Source of the DNA: a virus
Reading direction: 5' to 3' (one strand)
Length of the DNA: 25,085 bases
Virus record (IMG/VR): IMGVR_UViG_3300031673_000444
Coordinates: 1-25,085 of that record
How positions within the stretch are numbered: the stretch's first letter is position 1; every line of letters starts with the position of its first letter. Made by a program: the position numbers and the translations under genes. Below, one piece after another: positions 1 to 23,473 of the stretch. The notes below the pieces were generated by a model that saw only the letters and a program-made list of their open reading frames with translations, made no database searches and was not told the DNA's origin.

Positions 1-56
1 TCAAATTTGAGAGTAGTCTCAGCAAAAACAAACAATACAAAAAACAAAAAATAATG
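1..56 (+). repeat. 56-bp leader repeat, copy A
   Basis: This stretch is identical, base for base, to 2202-2257 and ends in the start codon (ATG at 54-56) of the first small paralogous structural gene. It contains a short hairpin, TGAGA-GTAG-TCTCA at 8-21, followed by an A/C-rich unstructured tail leading into the ATG. The tail looks like the A-rich leaders Bacteroidota use in place of a Shine-Dalgarno site. Copy A begins at the first base of the window, so it may extend further upstream. A shared 5' UTR or control element is an inference. Confidence 0.95.
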
Positions 57-521
57 TCAAAACAAACATTACAGGCTGGGCGAGCTATAGAGGTGGTACC
101 AAGTGATACTATCAATATATCCAATCCAGCATCAAGAGTAATTTCTAGTACAACCACAGCTACTACAGCAAATAAGTTGACCGATTCAGCTGGGCTATTT
201 ACAACTACTAATCTAGTTCACATTGGAGATGTTATAATAAATACCACTGACAACACAACAGCGACTGTGACTGCTGTAGATAGCGCAACAGCATTAAGTA
301 TATCAGCAGATATAATGGCTAATACTGAGACGTATAAAATATTCCACAAAGCAGGTGATGGGTACACGTTATATATTGGTGGTGCTGGGAATATTTCAAT
401 GGAGATAGGCGGTGACACCATAGTATTCTCAGGGATAATAGGGGGTACCTTATTACCTGTTCACGTAACTCGTGTCAATTCTACACTTACTACTTGTACA
501 TTAATTCGTGCCTTAACTTAA
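54..521 (+). CDS. Small virion protein, fibre-cassette leader gene A (paralogue of 2255-2719)
   Basis: The 155-aa product is a likely structural or fibre-anchoring protein; its exact role is unknown. Three parts can be seen: an N-terminal segment with PSDTIN at about residues 17-22; a Thr/Ala-rich beta-type module at about 38-97 containing TAVDSATALSISADIM; and a C-terminal beta segment at about 104-155 with an LYIGGAG...GGD..VF pattern. The whole chain aligns with the 154-aa product at 2255-2719, with roughly half the positions alike by eye. The middle module recurs in the head gene at 17257-17775. There is no signal peptide, membrane segment or enzyme motif. It starts in the repeated 56-bp leader and lies 3 bases upstream of the fibre gene, so the two are probably co-translated. 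I recall such PSDTIN...LYIG proteins as phage virion proteins, but not with an assigned position in the particle. Confidence 0.8.
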   Translation: MSKQTLQAGRAIEVVPSDTINISNPASRVISSTTTATTANKLTDSAGLFTTTNLVHIGDVIINTTDNTTATVTAVDSATALSISADIMANTETYKIFHKAGDGYTLYIGGAGNISMEIGGDTIVFSGIIGGTLLPVHVTRVNSTLTTCTLIRALT

Positions 522-524
522 TAA

Positions 525-1919
525 ATGCAAAACTCAATCGGTATATTTATTGGGAGTATGATGACGGCAGCCTATAATATAGGAGCCAACTTAATGACGC
601 AATTAAAGTTTCGGTCTGAAGCGGATGGGGGCACGTTTGAAAATCTATACGGGGGAATTGACACTATAAATGACCTGCAATCCATAGGTTTGCTAGACAC
701 GGCTAGACTTATAATAACACCTAACGCTTATAAGAGCGGTGTATTGTACGGTACTTATCCAAATACTACTGATGCGGATATGGACTGGGTGCGAGCGACT
801 ACGGCAAATAGAACAAATGCTAGTTTAGTTTCAGCAAGCGTAGCAAGTGGAGTACCTAGAGTTTCATATCCTTTAGACGGTGGTAGACCTTTTGTGTTAT
901 CAGAGCCAGCGAGAACGAATGTATGTTTGCAGTCAGAAGATATGACAACTACGTGGAGTTCGACAAGATTAAACAAAACAGCAAACGCGACAACCGCACC
1001 CGATGGAACTACAACAGCCGATAAAATATATGATGACTACTCGGCTAGCGCATCTCATACAAATCAGCAGGTAAACGTATTAGTCACAGGTCAACAAGTA
1101 ATAAGTATCTTTGTAAAGGCAGGCGAATACACAAAGTTTTACATAGGCAATCACAGTATTGCAACGGTTAGCTGTTTTGATTTAACAACAGGAACAGTTG
1201 AGGGTAACATAGGTAGTTGTGTGGGAAGTATTGAAGCCTATCCAAATGGATGGTATAGAGTTTCAACGGTTATTACTTGCACAGCAGGCAACCTTTTAAT
1301 TATGGGAATGTATATTACCTATAATGCGACGTACACAACGATAGTAAATCACACAGGTGACGGAGCAAGTGGTGTCTATATTTGGGGTTGTCAAGTCGAA
1401 GCAGGAGCTTACATCTCAACATACATACCAACTACAACAGTTGCGGTTACAAGAGCAGCAGACTTAGGAACAGGCAGTGGAGTAGCTGCAACATTCAATA
1501 GTGAGACGGGTGTATTGTTTGTTGATATAGCGGCTTTGTATGATGACAGTACAAATCGGAGAATTAGTATTAGTGATGGGACATTCAACAATAGAGTTGT
1601 AATCAGTTTTGACACATCAAATAAAATACAATGTTATTACGTTGCTGGTGGAGTTTCTAGTGCCACCCCCTCATTTGTGAAAGATACAACAGTATTTTCA
1701 AAAATAGCTTTTAGATGGGCTGTTAATGATTTCGCTTTATGGGTAGATGGGACAGAGAGAGCAACGGATGTCTCAGGGAGTGTATGTTCCGCTAATACTC
1801 TTACAGCTTTTCAACTAACGGACGGTAATGGCGGGTTACCATTCTACGGCAAATTCAAAGCTATTATACACTATCCTGTTTATTTAGACGATACACAAAT
1901 GGCAAACTTAACAACATGA
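525..1919 (+). CDS. Phage fibre/spike protein with carbohydrate-binding and LamG-like domains
   Basis: The 464-aa product is a probable receptor- or glycan-binding fibre. Residues 1-125 form an N-terminal part that may attach to the particle. At about 129-305 is the block typical of phage head-spike-fibre/CBM-like proteins: it opens with ARTN, continues with TAPDGTTTADK, has an NGWYRVS strand, and closes with QVEAG...YIPTT. Residues 310-464 look like a concanavalin/LamG jelly roll, with FALWVDGTERA as the usual late strand. There is no catalytic motif or signal peptide. It follows the small paralogue by 3 bases and overlaps the next gene by ATGA. The second cassette carries an unrelated fibre at the same place, so this gene is probably an exchangeable adhesin. 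Head fibre versus tail fibre cannot be settled from sequence. Confidence 0.8.
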   Translation: MQNSIGIFIGSMMTAAYNIGANLMTQLKFRSEADGGTFENLYGGIDTINDLQSIGLLDTARLIITPNAYKSGVLYGTYPNTTDADMDWVRATTANRTNASLVSASVASGVPRVSYPLDGGRPFVLSEPARTNVCLQSEDMTTTWSSTRLNKTANATTAPDGTTTADKIYDDYSASASHTNQQVNVLVTGQQVISIFVKAGEYTKFYIGNHSIATVSCFDLTTGTVEGNIGSCVGSIEAYPNGWYRVSTVITCTAGNLLIMGMYITYNATYTTIVNHTGDGASGVYIWGCQVEAGAYISTYIPTTTVAVTRAADLGTGSGVAATFNSETGVLFVDIAALYDDSTNRRISISDGTFNNRVVISFDTSNKIQCYYVAGGVSSATPSFVKDTTVFSKIAFRWAVNDFALWVDGTERATDVSGSVCSANTLTAFQLTDGNGGLPFYGKFKAIIHYPVYLDDTQMANLTT

Positions 1920-2191
1920 AATTTATAAAAATACCAAAAGACAAGCAAAAGCATTATTTAGTTAGTGCAATACTGGCGCTAGTTTTAATTCTAGGAATAG
2001 GACTATTTAATCTTAAAGTAGGAATAATTGCAGGGCTTTTAATAAGTACAGGACTAGGACTAGCAAAGGAGTTTATTTGGGATAGATGGTTAAAGCGTGG
2101 CACGTTTGATGTCAATGATATAGCTTTTAATATATTAGGCGTTTGGAGTGGAGCGTTTTTAGCCGCAATAATAACAGAATTATTTTTTTAG
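1916..2191 (+). CDS. Small membrane protein, possibly DUF2279/YfiM-like
   Basis: The 91-aa product has about three hydrophobic segments (roughly residues 13-33, 34-50 and 70-88) separated by a polar stretch. The polar stretch has GLAKEFIWDRW and then GTFDVNDIAFNILG, a GKEx(3)D...GxxDxxDxxxNxxG pattern that I associate with the DUF2279/YfiM family of small phage and bacterial membrane proteins. The N-terminal DKQKH also fits that family. Its start overlaps the fibre stop (ATGA), and it is the last gene before leader copy B. It ends with TAG followed at once by TAA. A part in lysis or membrane modification is possible but not shown. Confidence 0.6.
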   Translation: MKFIKIPKDKQKHYLVSAILALVLILGIGLFNLKVGIIAGLLISTGLGLAKEFIWDRWLKRGTFDVNDIAFNILGVWSGAFLAAIITELFF

Positions 2192-2201
2192 TAATAAGAA
2201 G

Positions 2202-2257
2202 TCAAATTTGAGAGTAGTCTCAGCAAAAACAAACAATACAAAAAACAAAAAATAATG
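2202..2257 (+). repeat. 56-bp leader repeat, copy B
   Basis: This is an exact copy of positions 1-56, ending in the ATG (2255-2257) of the second small paralogous gene. The hairpin TGAGA-GTAG-TCTCA lies at 2209-2222. The identity stops at the start codon: just inside the two genes the sequences are only partly alike. So the non-coding leader is far better conserved than the coding sequence it introduces, which points to a regulatory role, recent recombination, or both. Confidence 0.95.
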
Positions 2258-5887: not shown

Positions 5888-5895
5888 TAACTTTA
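5888..5895 (+). promoter_or_regulatory. Possible -7 box (TAACTTTA) just before a start codon
   Basis: TAACTTTA differs by one base from TAnnTTTG and ends five bases before the ATG at 5900. If used, transcription would start at or next to the start codon, giving a leaderless message. There is no clear -33 element, so this is tentative. Confidence 0.3.
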
Positions 5896-17256: not shown

Positions 17257-17775
17257 ATGGCAAAATTTATCAAGGTTCCGCTTCAAGACGTACTTGACGC
17301 AGGAACAGATGCTACGGGTACAGCAAGCAAACTGACTGTAGCGTCAACAGCAACATTCACTATTGGTGATTATGTTCACAACACAACTGACGGCACTTAT
17401 GCCACCATCACGGCTATTGATAGCGCAACTGTAGCATCAATTAGCGCTGACATTATGGATGCCGCTGAGGTATACATTGTTTATTCAGCAACAGTTTCTT
17501 CAGTTTCAAGAACTATCTCTGCGGAGAGATTCCTTATGGCTGCTCAAGCAACTGCCGCTGCCAATGCGATCGGTGTAACAACTGTTCAGTATGCTTCAGG
17601 TGGTTTAGACACGTTAACTGCGACTCACGCAGGTAATTTGTTAGCAACAAGAACAATTGCGAAGGCTTTTGATGACGCCTTTATTAAAGCGTTCACTAGC
17701 GGTGTAAATCCAGATGGATTCTCTACACTTGTAATGCCTTCAGGCACAGGAATGTTTACATTGGCTATTGCATAA
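17257..17775 (+). CDS. Head auxiliary/decoration protein with a domain shared with the fibre-cassette proteins
   Basis: The 172-aa product lies two genes after the capsid gene and is bracketed by its own -7 box and terminator. Residues about 21-77 contain KLTVASTATFTIGDYVHN and TAIDSATVASISADIM, clearly the same module as in the proteins at 54-521 and 2255-2719. The remaining 95 residues (SRTISAERFLMAAQATAAANAIG to PSGTGMFTLAIA) are Ala/Thr-rich and have no counterpart in those proteins. Codon choice resembles the capsid gene. Separate transcription, position and small size point to an abundant head-surface protein. That is an inference, and a connector role remains possible. Confidence 0.65.
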   Translation: MAKFIKVPLQDVLDAGTDATGTASKLTVASTATFTIGDYVHNTTDGTYATITAIDSATVASISADIMDAAEVYIVYSATVSSVSRTISAERFLMAAQATAAANAIGVTTVQYASGGLDTLTATHAGNLLATRTIAKAFDDAFIKAFTSGVNPDGFSTLVMPSGTGMFTLAIA

Positions 17776-19447: not shown

Positions 19448-22400
19448 ATGGCTGAGTTAAAGAGAATTTTCTTGCGTGGATCCATGAACAAGGATCTTGA
19501 TGAGCGCATGGTGGCTGACGGCCAATATCGAGATGCGTTGAATATTAACGTCGTAGATGCCGAAGGAGAAGACGCGGGGTCAGCCAGAAACCATTTAGGG
19601 AATGCTCAAATCGGGTCTTTATCAGACACCGCTGGGCAAGCCGTAAATAATGCACGTACAATCGGGGCTGTGGCTTACGAGGCAGAAAACTTGATTTACT
19701 ATATAGTAGCTTCCGATAATTTTGATGGTATATATGAATATAGTGAAATCACAAATGGCATATCAAGGGTGCTTCAGTCAAATAAGGTGAATCCAAGCAC
19801 GGCTAGTAAATTCAATTTTGATCAAGACTTTTATATCACAGGGTTTAATTATATTGATGGGTTTTTATATTGGACTGACAATAATAACGCCCCTAGAAAA
19901 ATAAAAATTGACAGGGCTAAATCCTATAATATTGATGATGACAGGATTAACGATGATATCACTGTAATTATTACAGCTCCAATTTACGCACCAACTATTG
20001 ATATGCAAGACACGCAGAATCAAGAGAACAACATGGAAGAGAAGTTCCTAGAGTTCTCCTATAGATGGATAACCGTTGACGATCAATACACTCCAATGGC
20101 GCCCTTTTCAGGTGTAGCATTTACACCTGGGTCGTACGCTTTAGATTACGGGTCTGGAGAGAACAAGGCGATGCTTAATACGAAGAACAGGGTAAAAGTG
20201 ACGTTTAGAACCGGGAATAGATTTGTTACGGGGGTAGAGCTACTTGTTCGTGATTCATCCACGACCAACATTGCAGTCGTAGAGTCTTTTAATAAGGATC
20301 AGCTAGGCATCTTAAACGACAGTGTTTGGAGTTTTGATTTCGCTAATAGTAAAAAATACAGGCCAATCGCGTCAAATCAAAAAGGGCGTCTTTCGGATTA
20401 TGTACCTTTAAAGGCTAAATCTCAAGAAATAATAGATCGGAGGCTAATATACGGGGATTACGTGCAGCATTATGACATAAAAGACAATAACAGCCTTGAT
20501 ATACTAATAGATTATAATGTTGATTTTGTATACAAACCAACACTTATTTATAGCCCAATACAAACCTTTAGAAGTGACAGGGATTTGGAAATTGGAATTG
20601 AGTATGGTGACGAGTACGGAAGATTGACGACCGTTCTTACATCTGAAAACAACACCGTATATATCCCCCCAGAGAACTCAGTGACAGGGAATAGCTTAAA
20701 GATTGACATAATAAACAAGCCTCCAGAGTTCGCCACTAATTACAGGTTAGTTATAAAGCAGACGAGAGGCAAGTATTACAATATATTTCCTATACTGTAT
20801 TACGCAGACGGTACTTATCGTTATTTCTTAATAAATGATTTTGATTTAGATAAATTTGCAGTTGGAGACTATGTTATATTTAAGTCGGACCTAGAAGGAG
20901 CGACGCTATCAAACAAAAAATACAAGGTGCTTGAGTTAGAGAATAAGGCGGTTGACTTCATATCAAGCACTTCATCACCTGAACTAGCTGGATTATATTT
21001 TAAAATAAAAGTTGACAGCAGTTTCGAATTCAACCCCGCAGCATTATTTTCATATGATTTTGAAGGTTACGGAGCAAACAATCTGTCAGGGGGGCAATTC
21101 TTAGCTCCACCAGTCCATGATAGATTTTCTGTAGCAGAAAATCCTATTCATTACGGATCAGGCATAGCAAATGTATTGTCGGTAATAGGCAATGCATTTT
21201 CTGGTCCAGCAGACCTAAGAATTACTATTGAAATTGTCAGTCAGACCACATTCAGGTATACAAGCGCTGTGGGAGGATCATCGTCATGGACAACTGCCTC
21301 GATATCAAGTGGGTCAACTCCTATAAATGTAGGAGGTATAACAGCGATAAATATACAATGGTCACTAGGAGGGTCACCTTTTGTAGTTGGAGACAAGTGG
21401 AAAATAAATTGCAGAACCTCTTTCGATTTCGGAGGCAATATATTCGGTGGGAACGGACTGCCAGGGCAATGGTCAACGGCAGGAACGACAGGAATTTACG
21501 ACTGGGGAGGGGCTGTTATTTTGCCGGGACCAGGGTGGTCGCCAACAATCTCTCCTGAAACAGACAGGGCTATAGAGGCGGGAGCAGTAATTGGAATAGA
21601 GATCTTGACTGACACTTATAATGCTGGACAACCAACCGCTATTCAGTATTTTCCGCCGTCAACCGTAGACTATGTCAACATAGAAGAATGGTTTATAGAA
21701 TCTGGGGCTTACCAAGCCTTTGTCCACATGGTCGGTGATCCTTTAGACCCGACAAACCCACTAGCAGCAACAGATGTGGGGGCTAAGGGGGTAACATTCA
21801 GGAGAGGATCTAACTACTTAACTAGTTTTCTTCCTTCAATGTCACTTGGCGTTGTTGGGGCTGGGGTGATGAGCCAAGGATCATCAATAACTTCAGAAAC
21901 TTTGAATTATCCTGTGAGAATGATAATACAGGGTTTTCAAACGGTTGCCGCAAGTGATTTTAATGTGGTGCAGGCTAGTATAAGTGTGCAGCAAGCAGAG
22001 TTTTTGGCTATTTGCGAGACGGTACCTCCAGAAGCTGACGCCGACATTTATCACGAAACGTCTAGGACATATCCAATATCAGGAGGGGAGCATAAGGTGT
22101 TATGGGCGTATCAAGACTTCACAACGCCCACCTACGCAAGCCCAGCTCCAACAGGATACACAAATCTAGGACAATTGATACCAGGCGACACCCCGTCAGG
22201 AATAGATCCTCACACATTTCAAGTTGGCGATCAAGTCGAGGTACACACGTCGGCGTCTCCGTATGCATCAATACCAGGAATGCACACTGTTCTATGGGTC
22301 GAGGATAAGTACAATATAATTATAGACTTAATATTCCCTGGGAATGGGGCTGCAACGGGAGGGACGATAGGATTTTATCATGACCAAACTGAAGAGAAAG

Positions 22401-23473
22401 ACCAAGTGATTGTAGGTAACAACTGCATAACCCCAGCGACACTGCTTATTAATCCAGTAACAAACACTAATAGTACATTTAACGCGTATGCATTTGGCAC
22501 GGGCTTAGAGACAGATCGAATAAGGGATAATTTCAATTCTACCACCCTTGAGTACAGTCCTAGAGTAAGCACTGTAATAGAAGATTACAAGCAAGAGAAC
22601 CGCATAGCATCTTTGACGTATAGTGGACTATATAAAAGTGAATCATCCATAAATAATTTGAATGAGTTTAACTTGTCATTGCAAAATTATAAAAATCTAG
22701 ACCCGGAATACGGGAGCATACAAAAGCTTTTCTCCAGAGACAATGACCTAGTTGTAATGCAAGAGGATAAAATTAGCCGTGTTCTTTACGGGAAAAATCT
22801 TTTAAGTGATGCAGTAGGTGGAGGAACTATAACCTCTGTACCGCAAGTACTTGGAACTCAAATCCCCGACAAGGGTGAGTGGGGTATTAGCTATAATCCG
22901 GAGAGTTTTGCTAAATGGGGGGATTCGTTTTATTTCACAGACGCTAGAAGAGGTACTGTTTTGAACATGTCAGGAGAAACAATAGTGAGCATTTCGAAGC
23001 TTGGAATGAAAAGTTATTTTAGAGATTTAATGAGGGGCAGTCTAAACACTCAAAAACTAGGGGTGTACGACCCTTATAATGGTCATTATATATTAGCTTC
23101 AAACGCGAACACATCGAAGCCATGCAGGTTAACATTAAGTAGGCCTGGAGGAACTTATTCGGCTGACCAAAACCCAAATATTGAATTTGTAGGTAATGAC
23201 AAGCCTGATTTTTCAGTGTACAGTAATACATCATGGACTGTAGGCATTGTATATTCAGCGGGATCAGGATGGGTGACTGGATGGCCAACGTCAGGGGTTG
23301 GTGACGAGGGAGTATTCTTAGGCGTCTCAGACAACAATACAGCAGTAACAAGAACAGCTACAATAACATTTACATTTTGTGGCGGTTTAACTGCAACATA
23401 CATAGTAACACAAGGTCCTGGAAAGGTGATAATAGTTAAGCCTTGGGTTTTAACAACAATATCCAAAATATAA
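19448..23473 (+). CDS. Large tail stabilisation/muzzle-like protein with C-terminal BACON domain
   Basis: The 1341-aa product starts with LKRIFLRGSMNKDLDERM and GQYRDALNINVVDAEGEDAG, the opening typical of the crAss-like tail 'stabilisation' proteins, which form the end of the short tail. The body is strand-rich, with blocks such as FSYRWITVDDQYTPMAPFSG, RFVTGVELLVRDSS and LYYADGTYRYFLINDFDLD. A Gly/Ser-rich middle (about 545-930) follows, then the conserved-looking IQKLFSRDNDLVVMQEDKISRVL and YFTDARRGTVLNMSGE. Residues about 1254-1323 look like a BACON domain (FSVYSNTSWTV, RTATITFTF, VTQG), a carbohydrate-binding fold of Bacteroidota. It may let the tail tip touch host or mucus glycans. The start follows the connector gene by 2 bases; the stop overlaps the next start. 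Confidence 0.78.
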   Translation: MAELKRIFLRGSMNKDLDERMVADGQYRDALNINVVDAEGEDAGSARNHLGNAQIGSLSDTAGQAVNNARTIGAVAYEAENLIYYIVASDNFDGIYEYSEITNGISRVLQSNKVNPSTASKFNFDQDFYITGFNYIDGFLYWTDNNNAPRKIKIDRAKSYNIDDDRINDDITVIITAPIYAPTIDMQDTQNQENNMEEKFLEFSYRWITVDDQYTPMAPFSGVAFTPGSYALDYGSGENKAMLNTKNRVKVTFRTGNRFVTGVELLVRDSSTTNIAVVESFNKDQLGILNDSVWSFDFANSKKYRPIASNQKGRLSDYVPLKAKSQEIIDRRLIYGDYVQHYDIKDNNSLDILIDYNVDFVYKPTLIYSPIQTFRSDRDLEIGIEYGDEYGRLTTVLTSENNTVYIPPENSVTGNSLKIDIINKPPEFATNYRLVIKQTRGKYYNIFPILYYADGTYRYFLINDFDLDKFAVGDYVIFKSDLEGATLSNKKYKVLELENKAVDFISSTSSPELAGLYFKIKVDSSFEFNPAALFSYDFEGYGANNLSGGQFLAPPVHDRFSVAENPIHYGSGIANVLSVIGNAFSGPADLRITIEIVSQTTFRYTSAVGGSSSWTTASISSGSTPINVGGITAINIQWSLGGSPFVVGDKWKINCRTSFDFGGNIFGGNGLPGQWSTAGTTGIYDWGGAVILPGPGWSPTISPETDRAIEAGAVIGIEILTDTYNAGQPTAIQYFPPSTVDYVNIEEWFIESGAYQAFVHMVGDPLDPTNPLAATDVGAKGVTFRRGSNYLTSFLPSMSLGVVGAGVMSQGSSITSETLNYPVRMIIQGFQTVAASDFNVVQASISVQQAEFLAICETVPPEADADIYHETSRTYPISGGEHKVLWAYQDFTTPTYASPAPTGYTNLGQLIPGDTPSGIDPHTFQVGDQVEVHTSASPYASIPGMHTVLWVEDKYNIIIDLIFPGNGAATGGTIGFYHDQTEEKDQVIVGNNCITPATLLINPVTNTNSTFNAYAFGTGLETDRIRDNFNSTTLEYSPRVSTVIEDYKQENRIASLTYSGLYKSESSINNLNEFNLSLQNYKNLDPEYGSIQKLFSRDNDLVVMQEDKISRVLYGKNLLSDAVGGGTITSVPQVLGTQIPDKGEWGISYNPESFAKWGDSFYFTDARRGTVLNMSGETIVSISKLGMKSYFRDLMRGSLNTQKLGVYDPYNGHYILASNANTSKPCRLTLSRPGGTYSADQNPNIEFVGNDKPDFSVYSNTSWTVGIVYSAGSGWVTGWPTSGVGDEGVFLGVSDNNTAVTRTATITFTFCGGLTATYIVTQGPGKVIIVKPWVLTTISKI

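Follow-up and report, generated by a model that had tools for sequence, protein, structure and literature searches.

In Cluster K mycobacteriophages, the non-structural half of the genome carries 11-19 copies of a 13-bp asymmetric motif (SAS), which stand ahead of different gene families (PMC3203893). In T4-like phages, promoter early stem-loops (PeSL) have been put forward as drivers of modular shuffling (Arbiol 2010 and Comeau 2014, as cited in PMC4503421), and HGTV-1 carries a PeSL-like motif (PMC3950731). In Flavobacterium, a Kozak-like rule favours A at positions -3, -6, -12 and -13 relative to the start codon, and promoters follow the rule TAHHTTTG (PMC6847099). Here we analyzed a leader that precedes two adaptor-fibre cassettes in a complete IMG/VR virus record (G000; linear, a single contig of 25,085 bp), which we call the window.

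A first-pass annotation had reported an exact 56-bp repeat before two partly alike genes, and this was borne out. Positions 1-56 and 2202-2257 match at 56 of 56 positions, i.e., 53 non-coding nucleotides plus the ATG, and the first difference between the copies is the base after the ATG (T57 versus C2258). No third copy was found in the 25,085-bp window with up to 3 mismatches allowed. The 5′ boundary at 2202 is dictated by the contig start and not by observed divergence: the first base of copy 1 is also that of the contig, so the left edge of this copy is the contig end and the repeat may extend further upstream. The features are listed in Table 1.

Table 1. Coordinates of the two cassettes, of the elements of their leader and of the palindrome array in the closest complete relative.
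Feature	Position	Strand	Basis or remark
Leader copy 1, non-coding	1-53	+	56/56 identity with 2202-2257; left side cut by contig end
Hairpin/dyad TGAGA-GTAG-TCTCA, copy 1	8-21	+	-5.3 kcal/mol, z -1.7
A-rich unstructured run to ATG, copy 1	23-53	+	A at -3, -6, -12, -13
Adaptor gene 1, 155 aa	54-521	+	C-terminal match to phrog_12296 'tail fiber protein'
Fibre gene 1, 464 aa	525-1919	+	phrog_5939 tail protein, 6.8e-50; weak Laminin_G_3
ORF91, small membrane protein, closes cassette 1	1916-2191	+	Weak VanZ/DUF2279
Leader copy 2, non-coding	2202-2254	+	Inside 63-bp gap from ORF91 stop (2191) to ATG 2255
Hairpin/dyad, copy 2	2209-2222	+	Same fold and dyad search
A-rich unstructured run to ATG, copy 2	2224-2254	+	Sequence and composition
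Adaptor gene 2, 154 aa	2255-2719	+	phrog_12296, 3.7e-10
Fibre gene 2, 401 aa	2721-3926	+	BspA-type LRR; LRR_5 4.9e-05, under curated cut-off
GTGTCGTTAACGACAC palindrome array	L190 (MW202828.1 12000-60850) 31746-43170	n/a	14 exact copies

The leader was searched for outside the window. Its exact 27-, 24- and 18-mers gave no match in IMG/VR, a DNA search against the phage collection gave none, and no Rfam family was found. The 56-mer was absent from every relative examined, and no donor was seen. The first-pass annotation had taken absence from related phages as a sign of chance duplication or of an assembly artefact. The absence holds literally. Chance duplication is ruled out, because 0 of 100 dinucleotide shuffles yielded such a repeat; an assembly effect retains some probability, as the contig breaks off at copy 1. 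The presence of both copies in one genome is for the same reason only presumed. The contig might join or end at a site where a strain mixture carries alternative cassettes behind a common leader, an explanation that we regard as quite improbable. The first base of the contig is the first base of the repeat, as expected where an assembly graph branches at a common k-mer, 56 would equal k+1 if the assembler used the common k of 55, and the relatives have a single adaptor. Against such a join, fibre gene 1, ORF91, the leader and adaptor gene 2 follow one another with no further repeat between them, base composition changes little over the junction, and reads are usually longer than 56 bp. Moreover, two different cassettes would still have one identical leader.

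The large terminase matches phrog_6681 and the portal matches phrog_6547. By terminase, the nearest named phage is Caudoviricetes sp. MW202828 (60%), with further matches to Maribacter phage Panino, Flavobacterium phages elemo (Elemovirus; about 40%), and Cellulophaga and Tenacibaculum phages. The best terminase match overall was 63%, and the window has no close relative. From these similarities we assign the virus to a podovirus group of Flavobacteriia hosts (Elemovirus/MW202828-like), and therefore the expression rules of Bacteroidota should apply to it. The window also encodes a 1341-aa protein (19448-23473) whose N-terminus partly matches the crAss muzzle protein (E 7.5e-9) and whose C-terminus weakly matches BACON. 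A Crassvirales-like affiliation was rejected, since MW202828, Panino and Elemovirus are the named phages closest to the window and the muzzle match is only partial.

The two fibres showed no detectable similarity to each other, and a search with fibre 1 as query found no close relatives. In the relatives, the adaptor often follows a small basic gene and precedes a fibre of about 200 to 1060 aa, and the fibre behind this single adaptor is hypervariable in length and sequence. The search with an alignment as query found homologs in 402 stretches, and the 80 best of these were retained. Among 93 homolog-bearing loci, many of them so short that a distant second copy could be missed, the window alone has two full adaptors, which suggests that the second cassette was gained in this lineage. 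Both adaptors share a module, NTT..ATVTAxDSAT..SISADIM (261-317 and 2459-2515). It recurs at 17401-17457, within a gene (17257-17775) downstream of the capsid region, and the same pairing is seen in loci L012 and L013.

The adaptors are paralogs with 75 of 153 amino acids identical (49%), and are thus about as distant from each other as they are from adaptors of other phages (50-54%). Their nucleotide identity falls from 0.71 over the first 25 codons to 0.33-0.40 at the 3′ end. At the 73 degenerate positions with an identical amino acid, the same codon is used in 26, and 24.9 are expected at saturation. A tree built from 73 adaptors places the two window copies on long branches and pairs them in only 12% of its bootstrap replicates. 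Because synonymous sites are saturated and no clade is supported, the gene split is old, and the leader identity is either much younger than the split or held by very strict selection. With 53 of 53 positions identical, the leader stands far above the flanking paralogous sequence with its saturated synonymous sites, which is the pattern looked for in gene conversion. Recent tandem duplication of the whole cassette was rejected, since the fibres are dissimilar, the adaptors are saturated and their sisterhood is unsupported.

We then turned to the signals within the leader. It is 58% A, and its A positions and low structure near the ATG are those of a Bacteroidota A-rich translation leader; such Flavobacterium leaders (PMC6847099) share with it the A at -3, -6, -12 and -13 and the unstructured region near the ATG, but they are a general mRNA feature and not a repeated sequence. 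The hairpin noticed in the first-pass annotation is present, but it is weak and has no demonstrated role: at -5.3 kcal/mol it is modest, and 16 of 200 shuffles fold equally well (z = -1.7). Its dyad has no further copy in the 25-kb window at up to 3 mismatches, and the 19 matches to a relaxed hairpin pattern were set aside as chance, since they lie in unrelated contexts without an A-rich leader running to an ATG.

The statement that the leader is not a standard promoter also holds. The Bacteroidota sigma-A -7 element TANNTTTG is not in the leader, which has only the variant CAAATTTG at 2-9, ~44 nt upstream of the ATG, and sigma-70 promoter matches near the leader are at shuffle background. Promoter-like TAWCTTTR sites, which fit the TAHHTTTG rule (PMC6847099), are instead found at 5888, 7644, 13732, 17219 and 17832, in five intergenic + strand gaps, and none lies in the - strand gaps of the window. 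No + strand terminator was found at the leader, and a candidate terminator of ORF91 was rejected, as its hairpin is not followed by a T run. In 17 of 60 distinct leaders of relatives, TATCTTTG precedes the adaptor ATG, by 16-21 nt in 16 of them (0.04 expected from shuffles) and by 52 nt once; the window leader lacks TATCTTTG. The adaptor thus often has its own promoter, and this, together with the five TAWCTTTR sites, would suit a promoter module in which CAAATTTG is a degenerate -7 element and the dyad at the transcription start an operator. We consider such a module very unlikely: Flavobacterium promoters almost always have T at -12 (PMC6847099), where this leader has C, and CAAATTTG lies ~44 nt from the ATG, as against 16-21 nt.

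As in PeSL, a repeated intergenic stem-loop module stands beside exchangeable genes, for which it is thought to supply shuffling homology. The window differs in that its module has two copies only, precedes late fibre genes and combines a weak, terminator-less hairpin with no clear promoter. The early promoter plus stem-loop terminator of PeSL was not found at the leader (no TANNTTTG and no + strand terminator), nor was a high copy density, with two copies in 25 kb. SAS/ESAS (PMC3203893) resemble the leader in being a conserved block at translation starts with differing coding sequence behind, and ESAS has an upstream inverted repeat; the window's block differs in being 53 nt long, A-rich, and present twice ahead of paralogs. 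SAS/ESAS lie a few nt from the translation start, and in both window copies the identity reaches the ATG. However, the 25 kb examined holds two copies before paralogs and not 11-19 before different families, and the 13-bp consensus GGGATAGGAGCCC is absent from the A-rich leader. Because the copy number and motifs that define SAS/ESAS and PeSL are lacking, we do not file the leader under either, though both would probably act in a comparable manner.

Repeats at gene starts were also found in the relatives. Tandem fibre paralogs in L116 (6473-8511), L148 (7588-10432) and L108 (1707-4787) have near-identical starts and diverged cores. In L116 and L148, the first 25 codons are 0.99 and 0.96 identical, the cores 0.36-0.8, and exact repeats of 60 and 71 nt, respectively, run across the start codon; in L108 and L116, identical 3′ blocks also flank the diverged cores. 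These paralogs resemble the window's pair in the near-identical start, the diverged core and the tandem arrangement in the fibre region, but their identity covers the start codon and first codons, whereas that of the window is almost wholly untranslated. L133 and L157 have 34-40-nt repeats spanning start codons. In L108 (2484 and 3561) and L157 (2155 and 3250), an identical promoter leader of 25-26 nt, CCAACATAA..TTATTATCTTTGTA, is repeated ahead of two non-homologous genes. Finally, MW202828, the closest complete relative, carries 14 exact copies of the perfect 16-bp palindrome GTGTCGTTAACGACAC; 8 of the 14 lie no more than 45 nt ahead of an open ATG, A/C-rich DNA follows several of them, and several copies are inside coding DNA. 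A 'repressor protein' is annotated in the same stretch (L190:28230-28706). The palindrome looks like an operator or a start-associated element of MW202828. Gene-start repeats are thus a recurrent trait of these phages and take various forms.

A rival explanation is that the leader is a sequence-specific control element through which a phage or host factor, binding it as an RNA hairpin or as a DNA operator, would co-regulate the adaptors, with purifying selection preserving the identity. In its favour, the identity goes exactly as far as the ATG, MW202828 also combines a palindrome, an A/C-rich run and an ATG, and the promoter-bearing leaders of L108 and L157 stand before non-homologous genes. 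However, the A-rich spacer, where drift would be tolerable, is also perfectly identical, the hairpin is weak, and there is neither a third copy in 25 kb nor an Rfam family; the MW202828 palindrome differs in sequence, and several of its copies lie in coding DNA. We therefore consider such an element unlikely. The control role proposed in the first-pass annotation is plausible mainly as that of a general A-rich translation leader, with no known bound protein, no Rfam family and no copy found in another phage.

Of the possibilities raised there (control element, homology arm or gene conversion), an arm or conversion is best supported by the saturated codons and by the starts and leaders of the relatives. 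On balance, the probable explanation is a recent recombinational homogenisation or transfer of the 5′ arm of the cassette, which doubles as an A-rich translation leader. The adaptor and fibre cassettes would belong to the region in which a Bacteroidota podovirus varies its receptor-binding proteins, and the leader would be the conserved arm on the upstream side of such a swappable cassette. The leader would recently have been copied between the cassettes, or brought in with one of them, by homologous recombination, either through gene conversion or through capture of a cassette with the leader as upstream homology; this would have made the leaders identical without erasing the differences between the long-diverged coding parts. 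At the RNA level, the leader would be an unstructured, A-rich region for initiation as is typical of Bacteroidota, without a Shine-Dalgarno sequence, and would give both adaptors one translation start context. The direction of the recombination and the enzyme are inferred, as is the part of the leader in driving translation. In elemo, a cultured relative, an Erf-like ssDNA annealing protein is annotated. Annealing proteins of this class use short homologies, and with such a protein in elemo, short-homology exchange in the group is plausible.

The leaders of the relatives bear on both recombination and selection. Their identity often exceeds that of synonymous codons, although it is low in some pairs, and the fibres behind them differ: over 50 nt upstream, in pairs that are not independent and in segments that sometimes include the end of the upstream gene, leader versus same-codon identity was 0.98 versus 0.53 for L107/L111, 1.00 versus 0.69 for L157/L167, and 0.92 versus 0.41 for L110/L111. 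Selection alone could account for these conserved leaders. It would also explain why the identity in the window ends exactly at the start codon, a point against recombination, as random conversion tracts need not end there. A broader reading, which we put forward only tentatively, is that recombination keeps blocks around the gene start (the leader, the start codon and the codons just after it) identical, and that these blocks, which have expression signals built in, act as arms by which adaptor-fibre cassettes are swapped or stacked, so that the receptor-binding tip would be diversified recurrently in the group.

If the leader is a remnant of conversion only, it is an example of ordinary phage mosaicism. 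If it is both a recombination arm and an expression signal, it would explain how fibres can be gained or swapped without loss of expression, and start-proximal identity blocks would then provide a sequence handle for variable fibre loci in metagenomes.
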